Shown piece after piece: positions 15,737-29,921 of a stretch of DNA of 30,586 nt. Within the stretch, counting starts at the first letter, position 1. Each line of letters begins with the position of its first letter. A program made the translations under genes and the position numbers. A model generated the notes under the pieces. It saw only the letters and a program-made list of their open reading frames with translations. It did no database searches and was not told where the DNA came from. Source of the stretch: a virus; the IMG/VR virus record IMGVR_UViG_3300007345_000160, positions 1 through 30,586 of that record, one strand, 5' to 3'.

Positions 15737-18700
15737 ATGTTTGAATATAACGGACAACAATTTACATTAGCAGAAGTTGAAGAAGCTGCTGCAAATAAAA
15801 AAATGTCACTTGATCAATATATAAATCAATTTGGTATTAAAAAAATTGATTCACAAATTGTGGAAAAGCCACAACCTGCTGCGGAGATAGCTGCACCTGC
15901 AGCAGGGCAAACTCCCGATACGGGATTGCAGTTGGAAAGTGGTTCTTCGGCTTCAGCAAATAATAACATACTACCTAGAGATCCCAATGAGGTTTTAGCT
16001 GCAATAAATGCCGTAGGTGTGGCACTTCCTTTATCAGATAATTTTAAAAAAGAATTTGTTAAAACAATTTATTCTGGGGTTCAAAGTTTTGATTATACTC
16101 AAGCAAAAAATAGAGCTCAAAAATTAAACGATGCTCAAGCCGCTATTGAAAAAATAAATACTCAGGACCAAAGAGTTAGAGCGCAAGCGGCTGAGGAAGG
16201 CTGGAGTGATAAACGATTAAATCAACAATTAAATTTATTTGTTGATGAAGGAGGTAGAAGCTTAGGTAAAAAAGAAGAAGCATTAAAATACTATAATAAT
16301 AAAATAAAAGAAGCTAAAACAGAATTCGTAAAAGAAATATCTGAAGGTAAAGAATATCAGCAAGTTATAAATGCAATGGGTGAGGGCGCTGAATTATTTG
16401 ATGAAGAAGGAAATTTAGATGTTCAGCTTTCAGATCTCAGCAAAGCCATGGGTAGTCAAGTACCTCAAGTTTTGCAGTCAATATTAACAGCCGGAGCCGG
16501 GACATATATTCAAGAGGCTGGAGGCATGACTGTTGAAGCTTTAGATGCTGCTGCTCAAAAAAAATATGGAGATAAGTTTTTTGAACTACCACAAGAAGAG
16601 CAAACTAATAAATTATTAGAGTTAGTTGAATCTAATGAAGTTGACTTTGATAAAATAGCACCTGCTGCTATGGGTATAGCTGGGTTAGATTTAGTCGGTA
16701 ATTTTTTTGTTTTAGGTAAAGGATTAAAAGTAGCCCCAAAAAGCGTTGCTAGAAATTTTGTTAAAGGAAGAACAAAAGCCGCTTTAAATAATGCTAAAAA
16801 AATTGCTACTGATTATAGAACATATCTTAATCCAGCAATGGCATTGGCTGGTGAATCAGGAACAGAAGCTTTACAAGAAGGCATAAATATGGCGGCTACA
16901 ACGGCTGCATTAGAAGATTTTTCAGAGGGGCCAATAGATACTTTTGATTCAGATAGAATAAGAGATGCTGCTGCTTTAGCTTTAATAACAACAGGCCCAA
17001 TATCAACAACAGCGGGAGGGGTCCGTAAAGGCTCTAAAGAATTATATAGAAAAATATCTGGTATTAGAGACGAAAATTCTGTAAGATCTATTACAAATAC
17101 AAGAAGAAAAAAATTAGAACAAGAATATACAGACGGTATTAAAGACGAACAACAAGTATCGGATGAATTAGATGCTTTAGATTTAGCAGAAGATGTTGCT
17201 TATAATAGAAGGTTTAGAAAATTTGAACCAGAAGCTAAAGAAGAAATGTTTGATCTTGAGCTTGAAAAGCTAAAATTGCAACAAAAAAACGAAGCACTTA
17301 GCCAATCATTAACACCGGATATAGGCAATATATTTGGACAAAATGAAAAACAAAAAAACGAAACTAGATTAAAAGAAATAGAAAATGAGCAGGGTAAAGT
17401 TGTTGCTAAACAGCAATATTTAGTAACTGATAAGCTTTTTGGGGCTTTTGTAAATAATAATAAAGAACTTTTTAACGGCTTTGAATATAAAAGCTTTAAT
17501 ACAAAAGAAGAATTTAAAGAATTTGCAAAAGAAAATAATATACCTTTAAAAGGCAATGTTGAAGGATTAGCTAATGGTGATAATTTTGGTATAGCCATTC
17601 CTGGTAAAAAAATTATTGTTACTGTAAAAGAAAACGTCAATGAGGGTATAAAAGACTTTATGCCTTTAAACCAAGTTTTAGCCGCTAATGTAGTTCACCA
17701 TGAAGGATTACACGCTTTGATGAGTACATTGTCAACTAAGCAATTAGTAGATTTAAAAGCAGAATTAGCTGCTTTGTCAAATGATGGTTCTACTGTTTCA
17801 AAATTAATAAACACAGCAACTGATTTATCAACGGACAGTAACGAAAGGGTGCAAACAGAAGAATTTTTTGCAAAATTATCTGATTTATTAAGAGGTGAAA
17901 ATTTAACAGAGCAAAATGTAACCGTAGATGATGCTAGCATTTTAGGTAAAATAGGAACTATAATTTCTAAAGTTTTAAATTCTAAAGCGCCTTCTTCTAT
18001 AAACTTTGAAAATTTAGAAAATGGTTCTCAAGTTATAGAATTTATTAAAAGATATAATTCTTTTAATGGTAAACCTTCTTTAGAATTAAAATTACCTACT
18101 ATAGGAAGTAAAGGACAACAAACTCCTGAAAAAGAAAATCAACAAGAATTTGAAAGCGCAGCTTCTGCAAATTTATCTGAAATATATAATAAATATAATC
18201 AAGATAAAAACACAATGATCCAGCAGAGTTTATTAAAAACTCCTCAAGGTCAAGAAACATTTGATTTTTCAAAATCAGAATTTGGGCAGTCTATTGGTGG
18301 GTTAGTTGAAGCTATAACAAAAAGATTATATGACCCTGTTTTAGATGATTTAAAAAAAGGTATAACAAGAGATAGGTTTAAAAATGATTTAATATCTGAA
18401 GCTGCTACTATTATTTCTAATGAGTTTAATCCAGATTTACAAGAAATTGGTAAATTTACAACTAATAGATTAAATCTTAGGGCAAATAGATTAGCTGAAA
18501 ATACATTTGAGCAAACTATAACTCAAGATGTAACAGAAGCTAAATCTGTTGTTTCTGATGAGCGTGCTCCTGAAGATATAAAAATAAAACAACCTATATC
18601 TAAATCGCTTAAACTAGATAAAGCTATTTCTAGTGATAAAATTAAAAAGCTTTCTGAATTATCTATTATAAAAGCAACAAATGCTCTTAAAGGTAAAAAT

Positions 18701-21700
18701 ATTGCAGATATAAAAAAAGTAAATATTAAAAATAAAGCTATTAATGAAATATTTAATAAACAATTATTTAAAGATATTGCTAATGAGTTAGGCAAAAATA
18801 CAAAAAATTCAAATAATTTTTCAAAATATTTAAATAATAATTATCCTGCTTTATTAGATGCTGCTATAAATAATATAGACTTTCAAAAAGGAACTGGTAT
18901 TTCGGCTAATTGGAACAAAATACCTCCATCAAAAAAAGACTTTATAGAATATTATGAAGCTAAAAATGAAAAACCATCAACAAGGTCAGATCGCAAAAAG
19001 TCTTTAAATGAGGCTATATCAAGAGAACTAGCAAAGCAAACAATTCAAGACTATGTTTTAAATGATCCCAGTATTAACGAACAGTTTGAGCAAGATACAG
19101 GTATATCTTTAGCTAGCGCTAAATTAAGAAGTATAGTTACGCCTGAAATTGAAGCTAAATTAAAAACAGAATTAAATCAAAAATTACTTTCTAGTAATGA
19201 TTATAATTTTACAAGCGCTTTCAAAACTATTGGGTTAGATAAACTATATAAAGATATTTATGGAGATAAAAAAGGAGAAACCAACTTTAATAATATTGTA
19301 AACCAATTTGAAGAAGTAGGTAAAACTTTAAATCAAAATAAATCAATAAAGCCTACTTTTGAATACAGAGGTAAAGAATATACTTATGTTGGGTTTATTA
19401 CAGATAAAATTTTAGATGAATTACAAAATGGTAGTTATGCAGTTCAAATAAAAGCTATTACGGGTCATGATTTAGATATTGATCTTAGCGATCCTCTTTT
19501 TGTTGCGAGAGCTAGAAATAGTATGTCTATAATAATTAATAACCCAAAAATAGGAAGAGCGTGGGCTAATAGATTTTTAAGAAAAGGATTAGCTGCGCCG
19601 TCTAAAATAGGTAATGGGACTGTAGTAGCAGAAAATAATAAATTAGTATATAAAGAAAATGCTAAGCCTGGAACAAACAGATTAGGTTTATTTGACGGAA
19701 CAGAAGATGTAGATAATTTTATTAAATCCGAAACAACTACAGAATCAAAAAGTGATAGCTATGTTCCTTTTGTAAATAATTCAGCTAAGCCTCTACAAAG
19801 CTGGACTAAAGAAGGTAATACAGACCAAGGACTAAAAGAAATACAATTGTCTGGTAATGAAGACAATAAAGCTTTTAGAACTTTAGTAGATGTCATGAAG
19901 GAAGAAAAAATTGGTATTGATGAGTCAGTAGCGATATTAATGGCTTTAAATGCTAATCCTTTAGGTTTAACTAGAACATCGGCTCCGTTAGACTTTATGC
20001 CTCTAAATTCAAATAAATATAATAAATATAGATTAGAGCATATGGTTCCTGCTTTAGCTATAAATTTAGCGGCATTAGATTATATATTTAACAAAAAAGG
20101 AAATAAAAAAGATTTTGGCAAAATGATGGATTCTTATAGAACCGCTCAGTTGCCAATTAAATATGATAATCTTGTTAATACTTTATATAAGGCTCATATG
20201 CCTTTTTATTTCAAACCGGGAGACACTCCTGTTGTTAGATATTATAATATTGAATTTAAAGAAAAATTTGACTTAGAGATGAAACAAATCTCTACAGGAA
20301 ATGTCATAAATAAAAATTATTATAAAGATAAAAAACAACAAGAACAATCTCAAAAAGATTTAAATAAAGTATTTGAGGTAGAGTCTTTAGCTTCGGCTAA
20401 ATTAAGCAATGAATTTAATCAAATGCTTGAGAGGGTTAAAGGTGTTGCTGCGGACGCTACATATTCTGAAGCTAGAGCTATAAAATTAGGAAAGAAAAAC
20501 AATCCTTTTAAATTTTTTGTGCCATATTCTGCTGAAGATTACATGGGCCTTATATACCCAACATTAGGTAGAGGTAAAGAGGGTGATGCTAATCTTAAAT
20601 GGTATAAAGAAAACATTACTGATGTTTACGCAAGAGGTATTCGTGACTTTGAAATAGCTAAGCAGCAGTCTATGACACAGTGGATTGAGCTTAAAAAGCA
20701 AATTAAAAATTCACCCGCTAAGTTAGGTAATGACGCTGTAAGAGATTTTAGTAATGAAGAAGCTATAAGATTATATTTATGGGACCAGCAAGGTATGCTA
20801 CCTGATAATGTTGCTAAAAAAGATATTGAAGCAATAAATAAATATATTGAAAGCAAACCTGAACTAAAAAGTTTTGCAGAGCAAATACAAGGTTTAACTT
20901 TAGACGGTTATCCAGCGCCAACAGGCGATTGGTTAGCCGGTACAATAACTACTGATTTAGTTAATTATACAAACACAGCTAGTAGGGAACAGTACTTAAG
21001 TCAGTGGCAAGAAAACGTAGATACAGTGTATAGCAAAGATAACATGAATAAACTTCGTGCTATTTATGGTGAAGACTATACTGAAGCGTTGAGCGATATG
21101 CTTTATAGAATGAAGACCGGTCGCAATAGACCTACGGGTGCTAATAAATTAACTAATCAATTTATGAATTGGGTTAATGACTCTGTAGGTACTATAATGT
21201 TCTTTAACACTAGATCTGCATTGCTGCAAACAATATCAGCAGTTAACTATTTAAACTTTACGGATAATAATCCATTAAGAGCTGCTGCTGCGTTTGCAAA
21301 TCAAAAACAGTATTGGGCTGACTTTTCTGAAATATTTAATTCTGACTTTTTAAAACAAAGAAGAGGCGGATTAAAAACAGATGTTAATGCTGATGAAATA
21401 GCTAGAGCTGCTTCAACTTCTGACAACAAAGTTAGAGCTGCATTGGCTGCTGTATTAAAGAAAGGTTTTTTACCAACTCAACTTGCAGATAGTTTTGCAA
21501 TATCAATTGGAGGTGCTGCTTTTTATAGAAACAGAATTAAGTCGTTAATGAAAGACGGACTTACCGAAGAGCAGGCTAAAGAGCAAGCGTTTTTAGATTT
21601 TAAAGAAACAACTGAAGAGTCTCAGCAATCATCAAGACCTGATAGAGTTTCCATGCAGCAAGCAAGCCCGTTAGGGCGCGTTGTATTAGCTTTTGCTAAC

Positions 21701-22747
21701 ACACCTATGCAATATACCAGATTGACCAAAAAAGCTGCTTTAGATCTCTTTAATGGACGCGGCGACTGGAAGACTAATCTTTCTAAACTTGCTTATTATG
21801 GGGCTGTTCAAAATATTATATTTACAGCTTTACAGTCTGCAATGTTTGCAATGCTATTTTCTGATGAAGAAGATGACGACGAAAAAGAAAAGATTGGTAG
21901 AATTGGTAACGGTATTGCTGATACTTTATTAAGAGGTTCGGGTGTATATGGGGCTGGTGTAGCGATGATTAAGAATATTGTTATGGAAGCTATTAAACAA
22001 TACAATAGCGGAAGACCGGATTATACTAAAGCTGCAGCTAAAATAACAAGTATATCACCGCCTGTAGATTCTAAAATAAGAAAGCTACAGTCTGTTGGTA
22101 GAACGTTTACTTATAAGCAAGAAATTGAAAAAATGAAAAATAGAGGTTTTGATATTGACAATCCTGCTTATATGGCTGTAGGCCAAACCGTTTCTGCATT
22201 AGCTAACATACCTTTGGATAGAGCAGTGCGTAAAATGAACAACTTAAAAACTGCAGTTGATCAAGATACTGAATTGTGGCAATCTATTGGTTTAGCTTTA
22301 GGTTATAGTGAATGGGATTTGGGGATGATCGAAAAAAATACAAAGAAAAAAACAATTAAGATATCAAAACCTAAATCTTATAAACAATATAAGCCTATTG
22401 GTGGTAGTAAAAGAAAAAAGAAATCTTTAACCGGTATAGGTTCTGGAATTCCTAAAGTTTTGCCCAAAGGTGTTTTAGGTAGAGCTAATCGCGATGGTAG
22501 CATTGAAGTTGCTAATGGGTTATCTCCTACTAAAAAAAAGCAAGTGATTGCTCATGAACAAAAGCATCAAGAAGATATGCAATCTGGAAAGCTAGATTAT
22601 GATAAAAAATTTATTTATTGGAATAATGAAAAGTATAAAAGAACAGCCGATAAAAAAATAAATTATAAAGGAAAATTATATATTGAAGGTTCTCCGGCTT
22701 TACCTTGGGAAAAAGCTGCAAATAAAGCCGAAAAACAAATTAATTAA
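15737..22747 (+). CDS. Giant internal virion/polyvalent protein with two HExxH zincin sites
   Basis: A 2336-residue protein, the largest in the window, in the T7 gp16 position. The start MFEYNGQQFTLAEVEEAAAN resembles a short N-terminal domain common to long phage and host polyvalent proteins. A first metallopeptidase-like site is HEGLH (residues 655-659), with Glu708/709 about 50 residues later as a possible third zinc ligand. Near residue 1432 is a conserved-looking RLEHMVPA. Residues about 1790-2050 are dense in aromatic residues and include SALLQTISAVNYLN, ADSFAISIGGAAFYRNR, QQSSRPDRVS and LAFANTPMQYTR, followed by a hydrophobic segment (about 2016-2041) and an acidic DEEDDDEKEK run. The C-terminus has a second site, HEQKH (2273-2277), and LPWEKAA (Glu2325). 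No lytic transglycosylase or RNA polymerase motif was found. It is probably packaged and injected; cutting of peptidoglycan, scaffold or host protein is possible. Confidence 0.75.
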   Translation: MFEYNGQQFTLAEVEEAAANKKMSLDQYINQFGIKKIDSQIVEKPQPAAEIAAPAAGQTPDTGLQLESGSSASANNNILPRDPNEVLAAINAVGVALPLSDNFKKEFVKTIYSGVQSFDYTQAKNRAQKLNDAQAAIEKINTQDQRVRAQAAEEGWSDKRLNQQLNLFVDEGGRSLGKKEEALKYYNNKIKEAKTEFVKEISEGKEYQQVINAMGEGAELFDEEGNLDVQLSDLSKAMGSQVPQVLQSILTAGAGTYIQEAGGMTVEALDAAAQKKYGDKFFELPQEEQTNKLLELVESNEVDFDKIAPAAMGIAGLDLVGNFFVLGKGLKVAPKSVARNFVKGRTKAALNNAKKIATDYRTYLNPAMALAGESGTEALQEGINMAATTAALEDFSEGPIDTFDSDRIRDAAALALITTGPISTTAGGVRKGSKELYRKISGIRDENSVRSITNTRRKKLEQEYTDGIKDEQQVSDELDALDLAEDVAYNRRFRKFEPEAKEEMFDLELEKLKLQQKNEALSQSLTPDIGNIFGQNEKQKNETRLKEIENEQGKVVAKQQYLVTDKLFGAFVNNNKELFNGFEYKSFNTKEEFKEFAKENNIPLKGNVEGLANGDNFGIAIPGKKIIVTVKENVNEGIKDFMPLNQVLAANVVHHEGLHALMSTLSTKQLVDLKAELAALSNDGSTVSKLINTATDLSTDSNERVQTEEFFAKLSDLLRGENLTEQNVTVDDASILGKIGTIISKVLNSKAPSSINFENLENGSQVIEFIKRYNSFNGKPSLELKLPTIGSKGQQTPEKENQQEFESAASANLSEIYNKYNQDKNTMIQQSLLKTPQGQETFDFSKSEFGQSIGGLVEAITKRLYDPVLDDLKKGITRDRFKNDLISEAATIISNEFNPDLQEIGKFTTNRLNLRANRLAENTFEQTITQDVTEAKSVVSDERAPEDIKIKQPISKSLKLDKAISSDKIKKLSELSIIKATNALKGKNIADIKKVNIKNKAINEIFNKQLFKDIANELGKNTKNSNNFSKYLNNNYPALLDAAINNIDFQKGTGISANWNKIPPSKKDFIEYYEAKNEKPSTRSDRKKSLNEAISRELAKQTIQDYVLNDPSINEQFEQDTGISLASAKLRSIVTPEIEAKLKTELNQKLLSSNDYNFTSAFKTIGLDKLYKDIYGDKKGETNFNNIVNQFEEVGKTLNQNKSIKPTFEYRGKEYTYVGFITDKILDELQNGSYAVQIKAITGHDLDIDLSDPLFVARARNSMSIIINNPKIGRAWANRFLRKGLAAPSKIGNGTVVAENNKLVYKENAKPGTNRLGLFDGTEDVDNFIKSETTTESKSDSYVPFVNNSAKPLQSWTKEGNTDQGLKEIQLSGNEDNKAFRTLVDVMKEEKIGIDESVAILMALNANPLGLTRTSAPLDFMPLNSNKYNKYRLEHMVPALAINLAALDYIFNKKGNKKDFGKMMDSYRTAQLPIKYDNLVNTLYKAHMPFYFKPGDTPVVRYYNIEFKEKFDLEMKQISTGNVINKNYYKDKKQQEQSQKDLNKVFEVESLASAKLSNEFNQMLERVKGVAADATYSEARAIKLGKKNNPFKFFVPYSAEDYMGLIYPTLGRGKEGDANLKWYKENITDVYARGIRDFEIAKQQSMTQWIELKKQIKNSPAKLGNDAVRDFSNEEAIRLYLWDQQGMLPDNVAKKDIEAINKYIESKPELKSFAEQIQGLTLDGYPAPTGDWLAGTITTDLVNYTNTASREQYLSQWQENVDTVYSKDNMNKLRAIYGEDYTEALSDMLYRMKTGRNRPTGANKLTNQFMNWVNDSVGTIMFFNTRSALLQTISAVNYLNFTDNNPLRAAAAFANQKQYWADFSEIFNSDFLKQRRGGLKTDVNADEIARAASTSDNKVRAALAAVLKKGFLPTQLADSFAISIGGAAFYRNRIKSLMKDGLTEEQAKEQAFLDFKETTEESQQSSRPDRVSMQQASPLGRVVLAFANTPMQYTRLTKKAALDLFNGRGDWKTNLSKLAYYGAVQNIIFTALQSAMFAMLFSDEEDDDEKEKIGRIGNGIADTLLRGSGVYGAGVAMIKNIVMEAIKQYNSGRPDYTKAAAKITSISPPVDSKIRKLQSVGRTFTYKQEIEKMKNRGFDIDNPAYMAVGQTVSALANIPLDRAVRKMNNLKTAVDQDTELWQSIGLALGYSEWDLGMIEKNTKKKTIKISKPKSYKQYKPIGGSKRKKKSLTGIGSGIPKVLPKGVLGRANRDGSIEVANGLSPTKKKQVIAHEQKHQEDMQSGKLDYDKKFIYWNNEKYKRTADKKINYKGKLYIEGSPALPWEKAANKAEKQIN

Positions 22748-23340: not shown

Positions 23341-23383
23341 AAAAAAAGGGGTAACCATTTACGGCTACCCCTTTATTTTTTTT
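23341..23383. terminator. Bidirectional intrinsic terminator between converging operons
   Basis: AAAGGGGTA (23345-23353) pairs with TACCCCTTT (23366-23374). Inside this, CC (355-356) can pair with GG (363-364) across one mismatch, leaving a six-base loop. An A-run lies on the left (23341-23347) and a T-run on the right (23376-23383), so either transcript ends in a U-tract. The plus-strand module stops at 23337 and the minus-strand nrdA gene at 23382. Confidence 0.9.
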
Positions 23384-25127
23384 ACCCATCACAAGATATG
23401 CAACTAGGATCCATTGCTTTTGCGGCTATATCGCCTCGCAATACTGATTCTGTACGCATATAATATAATGTTTTTATACCTCTTTTCCAAGCTTCAAAAT
23501 GAACCTGATTAATCCATCTAGGTTCTGCTTCTGAAGGGAAAGCTAAATTAAGCGATACTGACTGATCTATATAATCTTGTCGTATACCCGCTTGACCAAC
23601 CAATTCTAATTGGTTTATTTCTTTAAATGTTTTAAATACATTTTTAACTGGCTCGCCATCTTCCTGAGTTAGTCGTCCGAGGTGATCGTAAAACCATCCA
23701 TCGAGTTCTTTAATTCCTTGAACGGATCCACCATCTTCCAAAATTTTATCCCAAATTTCTTTGGTATCAATACCAATCTTTTTAAATACTTTTTTAAGTT
23801 CATTATTTTTACGTATAAACGTTCCTTTAGCTGATTGCTCTGTAAACACGTTGGCAGCCCAAGGCTCAATTCCAGGAGATATATTACCGCTAAGCTTACT
23901 ATTAGAGACTGTAGGAGCCACAGACCGAAGATGAGTGTTACGCATACCAGTACCCACACACCAGAGCGGCTCCCCATATATTTCTGCAAGCTTTCTCGAT
24001 GCTCTCTCAGACTCAATTTTAATTTTACTAAATATTTCACGTGTTTTAAATTGTGCTAATAATCCTTCAAAAGCAATTCCTTTTTGCTGCAACAAAGTAT
24101 GCCAACCTAAAACACCTAAACCTACTGCTCGGCCTTTTTCAGCGCTACGTATAGCATTCTCAAAGCCTTTCATGTTTTTAGCTTTTTGTATAAACTCTTC
24201 CATTACTCCATCTAAAAACCAAATAGCATCATAAATAAGATTAGTATTTTTCCATTCATCATACTTTGCAAGGTTTACTGAAGACAAACAACAAACAAAA
24301 CTATGTGATTCATCCGTATGCAATGTAATTTCACTACATATGTTCGTCATATGTACTTTTAAGCTATTGCTTTTGTAAGCATCTGGATTAGCTTTGTTCG
24401 TATTGCCTTTAAAGAGGATATACGGCTCCCCAGTAGCTTTACGTTTTTGGAGTAGTTTTGACCACCTCGATCTTGCTTCTTGATCTCCGCCCTCGAGTCT
24501 TCGCATAAACTTATCGCCAACGACAGCACACTGATGTAGGTTAAGAGATTGCCTGTTGACGTCGCCTTTAGGTTCTCTGATTTCCAACCATTCATCAAAA
24601 TCAGGGTGTTCGATATTGAGATTAACGGATGCAGCCCCTCTTCGTACTGATCCTTGATTGGTCGCGAGTATAGTTGAGTCATAGATTTTGCAAAAAGGGA
24701 CAACTCCATCTGATGTTCCATTACCTGTAATTTTAGCTCCAGCGGGTCTTATCATATTAATGCCAATACCTACACCCCCACCGTGCTTTGCAAGTAGCAT
24801 CATTTCTAAATTTTTTTGTCCAATATCATTTATACTATCTGCTACATCAATACCAAAGCAACTTATAGGTAAACCTCGGTCTGTGCCTGTATTAGACAAC
24901 ACTGGGGAGGCTAAACATAGCCACCCCTTCCATATATACTCAAAAAACTTTTCAGCCAGTTCTGGCTTATATAAACGCCTCGCTACTGAATTAGCTACTC
25001 TTTGATATGCATCTCTAGGTGACTCACCTAAAAGTAAATAACCGCCTGTTATAGTTTTTTTATAAACTTCAGTATCTCCCCAGGACGGATAGTCAACACC
25101 TTTTTTCCATTCTTTATTCCATTCCAT
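23382..25127 (-). CDS. nrdA: Ribonucleotide reductase class I alpha (large) subunit, without ATP-cone
   Basis: A 581-residue enzyme subunit that reduces ribonucleotides to deoxyribonucleotides with NrdB. The active-site set is complete: redox pair Cys90 (ISCFGID) and Cys280 (CCLSSVNLA), the NICSE loop with Asn262, thiyl Cys264 and Glu266, radical-transfer Tyr555/Tyr556 (TLYYMRT), and a C-terminal shuttle pair CISC (576/579). The N-terminus starts directly in the helical domain, about 135 residues earlier relative to the first redox cysteine than in E. coli NrdA, so the ATP-cone that senses dATP is absent. It is the last gene of the operon, one base after the zinc-ribbon membrane gene and upstream of the shared terminator. 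The order is beta before alpha. Confidence 0.95.
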   Translation of the reverse strand: MEWNKEWKKGVDYPSWGDTEVYKKTITGGYLLLGESPRDAYQRVANSVARRLYKPELAEKFFEYIWKGWLCLASPVLSNTGTDRGLPISCFGIDVADSINDIGQKNLEMMLLAKHGGGVGIGINMIRPAGAKITGNGTSDGVVPFCKIYDSTILATNQGSVRRGAASVNLNIEHPDFDEWLEIREPKGDVNRQSLNLHQCAVVGDKFMRRLEGGDQEARSRWSKLLQKRKATGEPYILFKGNTNKANPDAYKSNSLKVHMTNICSEITLHTDESHSFVCCLSSVNLAKYDEWKNTNLIYDAIWFLDGVMEEFIQKAKNMKGFENAIRSAEKGRAVGLGVLGWHTLLQQKGIAFEGLLAQFKTREIFSKIKIESERASRKLAEIYGEPLWCVGTGMRNTHLRSVAPTVSNSKLSGNISPGIEPWAANVFTEQSAKGTFIRKNNELKKVFKKIGIDTKEIWDKILEDGGSVQGIKELDGWFYDHLGRLTQEDGEPVKNVFKTFKEINQLELVGQAGIRQDYIDQSVSLNLAFPSEAEPRWINQVHFEAWKRGIKTLYYMRTESVLRGDIAAKAMDPSCISCDG

Positions 25128-25482: not shown

Positions 25483-25637
25483 AAGCTAATGCATTCAATT
25501 ATGTATGTACATTCTTGCTGTGTTGAAGATAAATTCTTACAAACCTTGCCTACATATTCACAATCAAAACCGTCTTCTTTATAACAGCTTAATAGTAATA
25601 ATAAACTACCAAATATCATTAAAGTCTTCACCTTCAT
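25479..25637 (-). CDS. Small lipoprotein overlapping the nrdB 3' end
   Basis: A 52-residue protein starting at the ATG at 25637. The N-terminus MKVKTLMIFGSLLLLLSC has a positive n-region, a hydrophobic core and an LLSC lipobox with Cys18 as the lipidated residue. The mature part is only 35 residues and has four more cysteines (26, 33, 43, 49). The gene overlaps nrdB by 32 bases in another frame and overlaps the next gene by ATGA, which supports it being translated. An internal ATG at 25619 would remove the basic n-region, so the upstream start is preferred. Longer extension of the frame into nrdB is considered a shadow. Possible roles are superinfection exclusion (as T5 Llp) or an outer-membrane spanin; no partner was found. 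Confidence 0.65.
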   Translation of the reverse strand: MKVKTLMIFGSLLLLLSCYKEDGFDCEYVGKVCKNLSSTQQECTYIIECISL

Positions 25638-26574
25638 TCGCTTTAGAATAGTCCGTGGGACGTACAGCAAAAAAATCAGTATGAGTGTGGCCGCCAGTGA
25701 GATGGTAAAACCAATCGAGTCGGCTTGCTCCTTCGTCATCGTATTTAAAGTGTTTCCCGATGTTTGTGTAACCGAGTTCATTGATTTTTTCATTAAGTCT
25801 TTTTCTAATAAATTGTTTGAGATCGTTGGCTTTAAGGTTTTCAATATCTCCTTGTTCAAACATTTTGTCGATATACTTTTCTTCTGCTTTAAGCATTGCT
25901 TCTGCTGCATCTATAACGTCTTTTTTACAGTCTTCTAATAACTTAGGATCTTCTTGACACATATGCCTAAACAACTGGCAACCCATTTTACTGTGTAATG
26001 ATTCATCACGCACACTCCACTTCATTTGCTGGCCAATACCTTTTAAAAGGTTTCTTAATTGGAAGCTATATAACACAGCAAAAGCAGAATATAAACTAAC
26101 TCCTTCAGCAAAAGCACTAAAAATAGCCAACGATTTTGCAATACCAATTTTATCAGTTCCTTCATAGCTAACTAAATTATCAAATCTTTCCATTGTTGCT
26201 TCATCTTGCAAAAAAGCTTCAAAGTTTTCTAATCCTAATGTTTCATTTAAATAACTATAAGCTACAGCATGTATTGTTTCCTGAGAACCAAACATCATAG
26301 CCATCTGTTGGATTTCGTGTTTAGGAAACCAGCCTACTACTTTTTGAGTCCAGTAATCTGAAACTGCACATTCTGTTTGAGCAAAGCCTAATAGAATATT
26401 ACCAACTAAGTTTTTTTCTGAATCAGTTAATTTTTCGTTCCAATCCTTAACGTCACCTGACATCGGTATTTCGGTGTGCAGCCAGAATGCTTGAGCTTGT
26501 TTAAGCCATCCCTCAGTATAGTACTCTGAATACTCAAATGGTTTGTACGGTATTCTTTCATCAAATAATCCCAT
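25606..26574 (-). CDS. nrdB: Ribonucleotide reductase class I beta (small) subunit
   Basis: A 322-residue ferritin-like subunit that holds the metal-radical cofactor for NrdA. The ligands are in order: Glu68 (AQTECAVSDYW, Asp in E. coli), Glu99 and His102 (QETIH), Glu157 (FAEGVSLY), then Glu191 and His194 (VRDESLH). Tyr106 (ETIHAVAY) is placed exactly like the radical Tyr122 of E. coli. The C-terminus NEGEDFNDIW is the acidic/aromatic tail that docks on alpha. The first ligand being Glu instead of Asp may bear on metal choice. The start ATG directly follows the TAA of the 65-residue gene (TAAATG), and its end is overlapped by the lipoprotein gene. Confidence 0.95.
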   Translation of the reverse strand: MGLFDERIPYKPFEYSEYYTEGWLKQAQAFWLHTEIPMSGDVKDWNEKLTDSEKNLVGNILLGFAQTECAVSDYWTQKVVGWFPKHEIQQMAMMFGSQETIHAVAYSYLNETLGLENFEAFLQDEATMERFDNLVSYEGTDKIGIAKSLAIFSAFAEGVSLYSAFAVLYSFQLRNLLKGIGQQMKWSVRDESLHSKMGCQLFRHMCQEDPKLLEDCKKDVIDAAEAMLKAEEKYIDKMFEQGDIENLKANDLKQFIRKRLNEKINELGYTNIGKHFKYDDEGASRLDWFYHLTGGHTHTDFFAVRPTDYSKANEGEDFNDIW

Positions 26575-27111: not shown

Positions 27112-27342
27112 CTACGTAGTGTAAAATCCGTGTCCTCTTGCGATTCTATCAATTTCTCTGTATTTGATTCCACCTTTTTCTTTTTTAGTGTATTGTTTAA
27201 TATCTCTTTCTAATACTCTTCTTGTATACATTAGTCGCGCTTTCTTTTTCTGTTCTCTTTGATCAGCATTACCGTCCGGTCTACTTCCTTCTGGTTTTGC
27301 GGCTTGTAAAGCGTCTTTCCAATCTTGTTTTTCGTAAGCCAT
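27112..27342 (-). CDS. Basic protein of unknown function overlapping the endonuclease gene
   Basis: A 76-residue, highly charged protein (AYEKQDWKDALQAAKPEGSR at the start, IDRIARGHGFYTT at the end). It overlaps the endonuclease gene by 112 bases in another frame. Two starts are possible. ATG 27342 has an A/T-rich leader like other genes here, and the overlap region shows AT-ending codons in this frame. ATG 27231 forms a TAATG junction with the endonuclease stop and would give a 39-residue protein. The codon pattern favours the long form. Helix-rich and basic, it may bind nucleic acid, but no motif supports a function. Confidence 0.6.
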   Translation of the reverse strand: MAYEKQDWKDALQAAKPEGSRPDGNADQREQKKKARLMYTRRVLERDIKQYTKKEKGGIKYREIDRIARGHGFYTT

Positions 27343-27689
27343 AATTTAAATAATTTCCATCTCAAAGGGAAAGACTCATTAGCCCTTCCCTTACATTCTA
27401 TTATGTAGTCTTTTCCAACGAAGTCAGGTGTATACTTAATTCCCAAGATCTTTTTTTGCCCTCTGTTAGTATACTCACCTTTTCCGTTGGATTGTTTTTC
27501 ATAAGATTGATTTTCAAAATTAAATCCTTCGACCAACTGGAAAACTTCATTTTCATAACCTTCAAATAGTTTTTCTTTTTTTAACGCCATATAAGTATAC
27601 CGCTCTAAGCCTGATGCAAAGTTTATTCCGTCGTAAGATATTTTTTTAGCCTGTACAGGTCCTCGTTTTTTACTACGTTTTTTTACCAT
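27231..27689 (-). CDS. T7 endonuclease I-like Holliday junction resolvase
   Basis: A 152-residue PD-(D/E)xK nuclease, close to the 149 residues of T7 gp3. Its expected residues are present: SGLE with Glu29, PDF with Asp89, then IIECKG with Glu98 and Lys100, matching T7 Glu20, Asp55, Glu65 and Lys67. The N-terminus is very basic (VKKRSKKRGPVQAKK). Such enzymes cut four-way and branched DNA, clearing replication and recombination intermediates before packaging. The catalytic part lies before the region shared with the 76-residue gene. It overlaps the upstream 93-residue gene by seven bases. Residues 116-152 (KPQNQKEVDRTVM) keep a family-like C-terminal pattern. Confidence 0.88.
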   Translation of the reverse strand: MVKKRSKKRGPVQAKKISYDGINFASGLERYTYMALKKEKLFEGYENEVFQLVEGFNFENQSYEKQSNGKGEYTNRGQKKILGIKYTPDFVGKDYIIECKGRANESFPLRWKLFKLWLTKNKIGKTLYKPQNQKEVDRTVMLIKENRKRKRD

Positions 27690-27964
27690 GATCTATCTTC
27701 TGTCCATCCCTCAGGACTTCTGTGCTTACTAAAGCTATCTTCTTCTTCATAATCTTTAAGTATTTTTTCTTCAAGAGCATCGCTAGTTTCCATCTTAAGC
27801 TTTTGAATATAGTTTACAGCATCCATTAATTCTTCTTGTAAATGATTAAGCCACTTGTGTAAACTGGGTTCGTCATCATGCAGAGTCACCCCATATTTTT
27901 TATAGCCTATATCGCTTCGTTCTTTGAACTTATCGATTACTTGTTTAATTATTTTATCACGCAT
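27683..27964 (-). CDS. MazG-like all-helical phage protein
   Basis: A 93-residue protein with ERSDIGYKKYGVTL (residues 15-28) and LHKWLNHLQEELMDAVNYIQ (35-54). This is a combination common in phage proteins related in outline to all-alpha NTP pyrophosphatases; Glu44, Glu45 and Asp48 could be metal ligands. A second conserved acidic helix is not clear, so catalysis is uncertain. The C-terminus is acidic and then polar (HRSPEGWTEDRSW). It overlaps the upstream GIY-YIG/MazG gene by eight bases and the endonuclease gene by seven. Confidence 0.65.
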   Translation of the reverse strand: MRDKIIKQVIDKFKERSDIGYKKYGVTLHDDEPSLHKWLNHLQEELMDAVNYIQKLKMETSDALEEKILKDYEEEDSFSKHRSPEGWTEDRSW

Positions 27965-28751
27965 CTTTTACAAATGTTCCGTTAACCATCTTGCCTGTAC
28001 GTCCAGCTATTACTTTATAAGCTGAGTCTATACAGTCTTCTATATTGTAACCCTTAAGCTTAGCTAAATTTGTTAAAACAACAACCATATCACCTATAGC
28101 ATCTATAATTTCAGGTTCATCATTTTTTAGTATAGCTTGTGATAATTCACCGGCTTCTTCTATAAGTTTAAGATATTGAGTTCTTACATCTCCAGTTTTA
28201 TATATACCTCTTTCTTTAGCCCATTCCCTAATTAATTCAAATTGATCTTGATGAGAGTATAGCTTTTCTTTATCTTTTTGAAACGGCCCAGCTGTATGCA
28301 TAGCTTTATTATATACAAAGCTACGGCTTTTATTAAACATAGATTCTTTAATATTGCTTAATATCCATTCTATTTTATCAGTTGAATCTATTTTAATATC
28401 ACCATATGGTGTTTGCCACTCAAGATCTCCTAAAAATGCTCCGTCAATATCATCTTTTGACACAGCAAATGTGGTTGTTTGATCTGTTACATTAACTTGT
28501 TTACTCATAGGTTTTTTAAATAATTTATCATAAGGTTTTATATCAACTTTATATCCTAAGTCTTTTTGTAATTGTCTTTCAGCGTTAGCAGCCTCTTTTA
28601 TATCATCTGTTTCAAATAATATTTCATATTCTCCAGGTTTAAAACCTTGTTCATCAACAACTCTTTTTTGTATATTAGTTGTACAGCCTATCTTTTTACC
28701 TAGTATATGATAAACTTTATATTTACCTGTGCTTACTGCTGATATTCCCAT
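27957..28751 (-). CDS. Fusion of a GIY-YIG-like domain and a MazG-type NTP pyrophosphatase
   Basis: A 264-residue protein with two recognisable ends. Residues 9-70 resemble a GIY-YIG domain: YKVY (11-14), KIGCTTNIQKRV (20-31, with Lys in place of the YIG Tyr), Arg30, and Glu58 in an AANAER helix. Residues 190-262 resemble MazG: LIEEAGELSQAI (Glu198, Glu199, Glu202), then EIIDAIGDMVVVL (Glu214, Asp217, Asp221). The linker (80-185) is unassigned. MazG enzymes hydrolyse NTPs or ppGpp-like nucleotides to monophosphates. The altered GIY-YIG core may act as a nuclease or only as a binding module. Its ATG lies within the end of the secreted-protein gene (19-base overlap). Confidence 0.75.
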   Translation of the reverse strand: MGISAVSTGKYKVYHILGKKIGCTTNIQKRVVDEQGFKPGEYEILFETDDIKEAANAERQLQKDLGYKVDIKPYDKLFKKPMSKQVNVTDQTTTFAVSKDDIDGAFLGDLEWQTPYGDIKIDSTDKIEWILSNIKESMFNKSRSFVYNKAMHTAGPFQKDKEKLYSHQDQFELIREWAKERGIYKTGDVRTQYLKLIEEAGELSQAILKNDEPEIIDAIGDMVVVLTNLAKLKGYNIEDCIDSAYKVIAGRTGKMVNGTFVKDA

Positions 28752-29089
28752 CTTACAATATAATATTTGTTATCTTGACCTCTAAGCAAAGCATCTCTTT
28801 TTATTTCGCCTGGTCTAATCATATAATCAGACTTCCAATTAGATTCAATAACCGCATCCATATCAGAATCTGATTCAAAAGAATCTATAACTTTAGCTTG
28901 AAGCATTATACTTTCATAATCACCTTCATACCTAGGCAAATAATCTGATGTTGCTATAATCCTACCTTGTTGTACCGGCGCAATATAAAAATCGTCTGTC
29001 ATTGTAACAAATTGTGATCCTGAATAATATACATAATCAAATTGTGCAAATGTAAATAAAGGTAATAATAATAATAATAATATTCTCAT
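28733..29089 (-). CDS. Exported protein with signal peptide, unknown function
   Basis: A 118-residue protein starting MRILLLLLLPLFTFAQ, a typical type I signal peptide with a probable cut after TFA (residue 15). The mature part (about 103 residues) is Tyr/Asp-rich and beta-like (FDYVYYSGSQFVTMTDDFYI) and ends IVRWEYQQ, with no second membrane segment and no cysteine. It should reach the periplasm or surface. It starts ten bases after the thyA stop and overlaps the next gene by 19 bases. The leucine core is encoded by six consecutive TTA codons. Lysis helper, superinfection exclusion or host modification are all possible. Confidence 0.7.
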   Translation of the reverse strand: MRILLLLLLPLFTFAQFDYVYYSGSQFVTMTDDFYIAPVQQGRIIATSDYLPRYEGDYESIMLQAKVIDSFESDSDMDAVIESNWKSDYMIRPGEIKRDALLRGQDNKYYIVRWEYQQ

Positions 29090-29099
29090 AATTTTAGTT

Positions 29100-29921
29100 T
29101 TAAGTTCCTACTGATAGTTTTGCTTTTATTGGTTTATGCGGGTTGTAATCAAACAACAACACATCATTTATTTTTGGTAATACTAATTCATTATCTCTTT
29201 CAAATATTCCACAACCTAATTTTAATTTAGGTGGTTTTTTAATACTTCTATTAAGCTGTTCTTTAACTTGATCAAAATGATTATTATATATGTGACAATC
29301 ACCTAAGCTGATAGTTAGCCTTCTTGGTTCTAGTAAAGCTCCTTTAGCTAACATTTCTAATAACAAGCCATACATTGCAATATCGTAAGGCAAGCCTAAA
29401 AATAAATCTGCTGATCTTTGTTGAAGCATTAAATCTAAGTGTGTGCCATCACTATATAATTGGAAACTATGATGACAAGGAGGCAATACCATATCAGGCA
29501 TATCAACTGGGTTCCACGCAGATAGCATAAGTCTACGAGAGGTGGGATTTTCTTTGAGTTCTTTAACAATGGATCTAAGCTGATCAACACCATTAAAATT
29601 GCGCCACTGATGCCCATATACAGGTCCCAATGTGCCATCCGTTCTTCCTGACCTTTTATAATCGGCGTCCCAATACCTAACGCCGTTAGAATGAAGATAA
29701 TCAAGATCAACACGACCGTTGATAATCCATAGTATCTCCGCAATAGCATTTTTAAAATATATTTTTTTAGTTGTTAATAAAGGAAATCCTAGAGCCATAT
29801 CATGCCTGATAATTCTACCAAACACTGATTTAGTTCCAGTTCCTGTTCTATCTGGTTTATCATAACCTCCATGCAACGTACCTGAAAGTAATCCTAAGTA
29901 TTCTTCTTCTATATTAATCAT
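29100..29921 (-). CDS. thyA: Thymidylate synthase (ThyA type)
   Basis: A 273-residue folate-dependent enzyme that makes dTMP from dUMP, close to the usual length of about 264. Motifs are in order: DRTGTGT (residues 24-30), SRR (128-130, phosphate binding), PPCHHSFQ with catalytic Cys149, QRSADLFLGLPYDI (168-181) and the CHIYNNH loop (dUMP binding). It has all the expected residues and is likely active. It overlaps the upstream 91-residue gene by four bases (ATGA). It partners with the ribonucleotide reductase genes downstream to raise dNTP supply. Confidence 0.96.
   Translation of the reverse strand: MINIEEEYLGLLSGTLHGGYDKPDRTGTGTKSVFGRIIRHDMALGFPLLTTKKIYFKNAIAEILWIINGRVDLDYLHSNGVRYWDADYKRSGRTDGTLGPVYGHQWRNFNGVDQLRSIVKELKENPTSRRLMLSAWNPVDMPDMVLPPCHHSFQLYSDGTHLDLMLQQRSADLFLGLPYDIAMYGLLLEMLAKGALLEPRRLTISLGDCHIYNNHFDQVKEQLNRSIKKPPKLKLGCGIFERDNELVLPKINDVLLFDYNPHKPIKAKLSVGT

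Follow-up and report, generated by a model that had tools for sequence, protein, structure and literature searches.

A single gene of an environmental phage encodes, in one polypeptide chain of 264 residues, a GIY-YIG domain and a MazG domain with a middle domain between them; this fusion is real and widespread, it is built of known parts, and it is undescribed in the sources that we searched. It was found in a stretch of viral DNA of 30,586 nucleotides (positions 1 to 30,586 of the IMG/VR record IMGVR_UViG_3300007345_000160), hereafter referred to as the window. Its most interesting features are a conserved, predicted internal start codon and a neighbouring gene for an enzyme apparently of the dCMP type. 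The best model, which we hold tentatively and rate a little below an even chance, is that of a T4-like module of a nuclease and a dNTPase, which would clear dCTP and cut unmodified DNA in a cytosine-modifying phage, with an additional short form of the protein made from the same gene.

The fused open reading frame (ORF) runs on the minus strand from an ATG at 28751 to 27957 and is free of stops across all 264 codons; the plus strand opposite to it contains many stops and is not open. It comprises a GIY-YIG domain of the T5orf172 type (residues ~9-77, 28521..28727), a middle domain without a Pfam match (residues ~86-155, 28287..28496) and a phage-type MazG domain (residues ~168-262, 27966..28250). 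Pfam recognizes MazG (PF03819) at residues 193-248 with an E-value of 3.8e-7 and 30.7 bits (cut-off 22), and the GIY-YIG family T5orf172 (PF10544) at residues 19-101 with an E-value of 4.3e-4 and 21.2 bits (cut-off 20). The latter match is weak in the single protein of the window, yet it is seen in 27 of 28 homologues (E<=0.1). The fusion is no artefact of assembly or frameshift, because 284 fused ORFs, corresponding to 221 distinct proteins, are present across the fetched contigs. An initial annotation of the window had proposed a GIY-YIG-like N-terminus joined to a C-terminal MazG motif in an unbroken frame of 264 residues, in a good agreement with the Pfam and structural matches and with the 221 distinct fusions. 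Both of its domains stand, but its two-domain reading missed the minus strand, the middle domain, the conserved methionine between the domains and the dCMP-type neighbour.

Hundreds of relatives turned up in scans of IMG/VR, and these, supplemented by a few contigs from genome collections, make up the set of fused ORFs described above; the fusions come mostly from IMG/VR contigs related to flavobacterial podoviruses, and the gene is present in one copy per genome where found. No full-length relative exists among 50,697 records of isolate phages, in which the C-terminal part alone finds matches, and a tblastn search of isolate phages with the N-terminal half gave no match at E<=1. A match to the GIY domain is also absent from the stretches examined of the phages that are nearest by the portal protein (L114 and L115). 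The architecture is nevertheless present in databases, since BFVD holds one unnamed full-length relative, and no papers on a GIY-YIG-MazG fusion were found in the open literature searched. The remark that this is not a standard architecture is thus upheld for isolate phages and for the searchable literature; as to whether the fusion might already be common and characterized, it is common in IMG/VR, and no characterization was found in the papers searched. The portal and structural proteins of the window are nearest to those of phages of Flavobacterium, Cellulophaga and Maribacter, which makes flavobacterial hosts likely. In the structural gene region of the window lies a single ORF of 2336 aa (15737-22747, plus strand).

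The genes around the fusion follow the order primase/helicase - small ORF - thymidylate synthase (TS)-family gene - (small ORF) - fusion - small ORF - resolvase-like gene - NrdB - NrdA in nearly all loci, and this neighbourhood points to dNTP and DNA metabolism. In the window, all on the minus strand, there are the TS-family gene (29100..29921), an ORF of 118 aa without a family match (28733..29089), the fusion, a conserved ORF of 93 aa directly downstream of it (27683..27964), a gene for a Holliday-junction-resolvase-like protein (phrog_190, DUF1064; 27231..27689), and the genes for the small and large subunits of ribonucleotide reductase, NrdB (25606..26574) and NrdA (23382..25127). The pattern KYGVTL...HLQEELMDAVNYI in the 93-aa ORF recalls a second all-alpha NTP pyrophosphatase, without Pfam support. 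A scan for promoters and terminators at the fusion locus gave nothing above chance.

The TS-family gene lies upstream of the fusion (within 1.5 kb and usually adjacent) in 204 of the 206 distinct loci with enough flanking sequence. Its product in the window matches Thymidylat_synt at 3.8e-86, and the segment LPYDIAMYG aligns with VPFNIASYA of thymidylate synthases, which places Asp180 at the position of Asn177 in the E. coli enzyme. In thymidylate synthases this Asn selects dUMP, and an Asp in its place marks enzymes that act on dCMP. Among the aligned rows with the respective residue, some of which count the same contig repeatedly, the Asp is present in 325 of 325 and the catalytic Cys in 322 of 322. 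The entries 1njc and 1njd, which we take to be the N229D mutant of the L. casei enzyme, score slightly higher against the window protein than other L. casei entries. Some loci carry a divergent version of the TS-family protein, whose best PDB matches are a CMP hydroxymethylase (1.5e-18) and the dCMP hydroxymethylase of T4 (1.6e-14), followed by thymidylate synthases; the two very different versions swap at one site, and both have the Asp. The universal Asp and the hydroxymethylase-like divergent version suggest that these phages probably make 5-substituted dCMP and that the window protein is a putative dCMP (hydroxy)methylase, although the Asp could also reflect the synthesis of 5-methyl-dCMP instead of hydroxymethyl-dCMP, or a relaxed TS.

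The C-terminal domain exhibits a MazG fold with a C-terminal beta hairpin, a feature common to phage MazG-like pyrophosphatases (phrog_715, phrog_1992) and to MazZ-1 of cyanophage S-2L, for which N-terminal fusions are known (PMC8342488). Its top structural match is S-2L MazZ (Z 10.0), followed by SSO3215 (Z 9.8) and further MazG structures. The EExxE motif and the second acidic metal motif are present: E198, E199, E202 and D217 are the same in all 182 aligned homologues, and D221 and R251 are found in 181, the remaining sequence having a gap. The Glu of the ExxD motif of MazG members is replaced here by Ala218 (or by Gly), next to the invariant Asp217. Identity with MazZ-1 and a 2-aminoadenine (Z) genome were considered and dropped: the guanine determinants of MazZ are absent (Asp60 corresponds to Asn228 and Ile56 to Val224), Glu50 of MazZ corresponds to Ala218, and PurZ was not found in 33 phage contigs. 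The structural neighbours of the domain include enzymes for (d)GTP and dUTP as well as dCTPases, and its sequence does not disclose specificity for dCTP; we infer this specificity weakly, and likewise the discrimination of modified DNA by the GIY-YIG domain. A survey of jumbo phages proposed that phage MazG-like enzymes could remove unmodified nucleotides (PMC7824862). Clearance of alarmones, which had been suggested at first, is not favoured, given that a tested cyanophage MazG did not hydrolyse (p)ppGpp (PMC6850273). In other phages, a stand-alone MazG gene is followed by an ORF whose C-terminal half is weakly similar to the middle domain (hhalign E 5.8e-6, probability 85%). In some fusions (L008, L009, L011, L013, L015 and L016) MazG is followed by an additional conserved, proline-rich tail (AYPDPGPPP...), and in two others (L226:1273-2175 and L259:1758-2621) a long additional segment separates the middle domain from MazG.

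In phage T4, the corresponding functions are served by endonuclease II (DenA), the dCTPase gp56 and the dCMP hydroxymethylase gp42. The likeness drawn here is one of function: a GIY-YIG nuclease, a dCTP pyrophosphatase and a cytidylate-modifying TS-family enzyme would act alongside ribonucleotide reductase, with nuclease and pyrophosphatase encoded by separate genes in T4 and by one fused gene here. Counting against the model, a search of 20 contigs, of which several are probably not complete, yielded no T4-type dNMP kinase (PF21448); a family-2 glycosyltransferase was likewise not found in 20 contigs. The fusion would then be a core replication and nucleotide gene of a probably flavobacterial phage group. 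Its MazG part would convert unmodified dNTPs, most likely dCTP and possibly also dUTP, to dNMP and PPi, and the resulting dCMP would supply the neighbouring enzyme that resembles dCMP (hydroxy)methylases, so that plain cytosine would be kept out of the phage DNA. The GIY-YIG domain would introduce nicks or breaks into DNA that lacks the phage modification, either that of the host or unmodified intermediates, and the pair would thereby resemble gp56 and endonuclease II joined in one gene.

An unlikely alternative, which still deserves consideration, is a housekeeping role similar to that of dUTPase, in which MazG would convert dUTP, or else damaged dNTPs, to the monophosphates and so serve a neighbour that is a true TS, and the nuclease would participate in repair or recombination next to the resolvase-like gene. 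Neither dUTPase, dUTPase_2 nor dCMP deaminase was found in 20 contigs, despite the presence of NrdA, NrdB and the TS-family gene, the resolvase-like gene is indeed nearby, and a role in recombination has been proposed for T5orf172 proteins (PMC7824862). However, dUTPase is normally supplied by the host, the divergent TS-family replacement is closest to cytidylate hydroxymethylases, and the idea is weakened by the Asp that occupies the dUMP-selecting position in all 325 aligned copies of the TS-family enzyme.

Returning to the T4-like module, the candidate nuclease was modelled together with the middle domain, and the six best VIA-align matches of the N-terminal part are all GIY-YIG structures, with I-TevI at Z 5.4 (rmsd 3.1 over 63 residues) and UvrC at Z 4.1-4.6; the model is middling (pLDDT 72, pTM 0.43), hence these matches argue moderately for the GIY-YIG fold that had been expected at the N-terminus. 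A Foldseek search of the PDB with the N-terminal model had no GIY-YIG structure in its table, but VIA-align found them among the same candidates. Y14, H15, K20, G22, T24, R30, Q35, G36, E58, Q62, Y67, D70 and Y74 are shared by all 182 aligned fusions, and thus the catalytic residues that characterize the GIY-YIG superfamily, i.e. the Tyr of the GIY motif (Y14), the Arg (R30) and the Glu (E58), are all kept. The Tyr of the second (YIG) motif is replaced by Lys (K20), from which the initial annotation deduced a changed or lost nuclease function. This deduction is unsupported, because a Lys occupies the same position in the nuclease R.Hpy188I (K73; PMC2630997), because Y14, K20, R30 and E58 do not vary, and because dN/dS is low (0.18 for the GIY part and 0.24 for the MazG part), which indicates purifying selection on both halves. 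R.Hpy188I itself is a restriction enzyme, and the spacing of its half-motif residues differs from that in the fusion (10 vs 6 residues). The T5orf172 protein Odn (Gp88) of phage ICP1, which cuts DNA, shares with the fusion the Pfam domain (PF10544), the catalytic Arg and Glu and the joining of the nuclease to another functional part, which is a RepA-like DNA-binding domain in Odn and MazG with the middle domain here (PMC8263062). As far as the sequence can tell, the GIY-YIG nuclease is probably not dead, and activity of both halves, nuclease and MazG, can be inferred with moderate strength. It is improbable that the GIY-YIG fold serves solely to bind DNA and so to tether MazG to the site of replication, without cutting: the Lys that replaces the YIG Tyr would suit such a role, but the same Lys is found in R.Hpy188I, the residues Arg30, Glu58 and Tyr14 are invariant, and Odn is capable of cleavage (PMC8263062).

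At the joint between the GIY-YIG and middle domains, all 284 fused ORFs encode a Met (Met82 in the window, ATG at 28506..28508 of the minus strand), always shortly ahead of the threonines that are conserved in the middle domain and surrounded by a hypervariable linker. The eight positions preceding it underwent 33-48 changes on the tree, a count that is anchored on the Met; the fair test is that of composition, in which at least one Met is found in the variable linker of ~7.8 residues in 106 of 106 non-redundant sequences (100%) vs 17% expected. The mRNA is weakly folded around this codon, with a mean of -1.1 kcal/mol, compared to -4.4 across the whole gene and -2.0 around the start of the gene itself, which is partly due to the Lys/Asn-rich linker. 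Recoding that preserves the amino acids gave an MFE of -1.45 vs the observed -0.66, with the shift in 86% of sequences, so that codon choice itself lowers the structure; controls with other Mets and random codons exhibited no comparable shift. In F. johnsoniae, adenines at -3, -6, -12 and -13 promote initiation (PMC6847099), and at these positions Met82 has on average 2.77 A of 4, vs 2.40 for gene starts and 1.51 for other Mets. Other AUGs nearby are depleted about threefold (37 observed vs 109 expected). The hallmarks of a Bacteroidetes-type start, namely a conserved AUG, upstream A, low structure and few competing AUGs, are thus all present at Met82.

These features strongly suggest that Met82 is an internal start, from which a second, nuclease-free protein of 183 residues, comprising the middle domain and MazG, would be made (27957..28508, minus strand). 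There is little probability that a single protein is made and that Met82 persists because it is needed for folding or is left over from an earlier gene start. Many lineages do have an M-x-I-x-V pattern starting from this Met, possibly a strand, and if two genes had fused, one start codon would remain as a trace; but Leu, Ile or Val never substitute for Met82, the Met is retained in lineages without the strand pattern (MNKHSSS), and the codon has an A-rich start-like context, low structure due to synonymous codons and a depletion of AUGs nearby. Since MazG enzymes are oligomers, the predicted short form would assemble together with the long one and thereby determine the number of nuclease arms per MazG oligomer. 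The fuller proposal, in which two proteins from one gene, a nuclease-MazG and a nuclease-free MazG, together with a dCMP-modifying enzyme would form a compact system that distinguishes self from non-self cytosine, purges dCTP and cuts unmodified DNA, is quite possible, though on balance doubtful.

The closest unfused relatives of the GIY domain are small free-standing proteins encoded amid phage structural genes (L152:3001-3456 and L153:3001-3459), the former of which carries a NUMOD-like domain; both are probable homing endonucleases, and it was probably from a free-standing GIY-YIG gene of this type that the nuclease domain of the fusion was recruited. Among the fetched contigs, the unfused middle-MazG gene was seen only as contig-edge or frameshifted pieces. 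It is very unlikely that a mobile homing GIY-YIG gene inserted itself near nucleotide genes, as in T4, became fused in frame to MazG by chance and serves only its own spread: these relatives do resemble homing endonucleases and GIY-YIG homing genes are common beside phage nucleotide genes, but the fusion occurs as a single copy in a gene order that is constant in nearly all loci, an intact GIY-less middle-MazG gene was not found, and purifying selection is strong, and so this reading was rejected on synteny, the occurrence being fixed in place and not sporadic or mobile. A different type of ORF (L262:3028-3498, L265:3001-3414, L269:3013-3429 and L273:3022-3441) has a conserved, nuclease-like IDF.DEKGFTYQ(V/I)K motif and a C-terminal half that resembles the middle domain of the fusion; those in L262, L269 and L273 are located directly behind a stand-alone MazG gene, and otherwise such ORFs are found near a TS-family gene. 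The motif in the first half of the ORF that follows the stand-alone MazG is reminiscent of PD-(D/E)XK nucleases. With a nuclease-like ORF that also resembles the middle domain placed behind a stand-alone MazG, the association of MazG with a nuclease may therefore have come about in more ways than one.

The fusion unites in one chain two activities that are separate in T4, and it is found in hundreds of environmental phage contigs and in no isolate record searched. If the proposed model is true, a second protein is made from an internal start, and cytosine-modified genomes exist in phages that are probably flavobacterial; such modified cytosine, if present, would affect both the sequencing of these phages and their escape from restriction.
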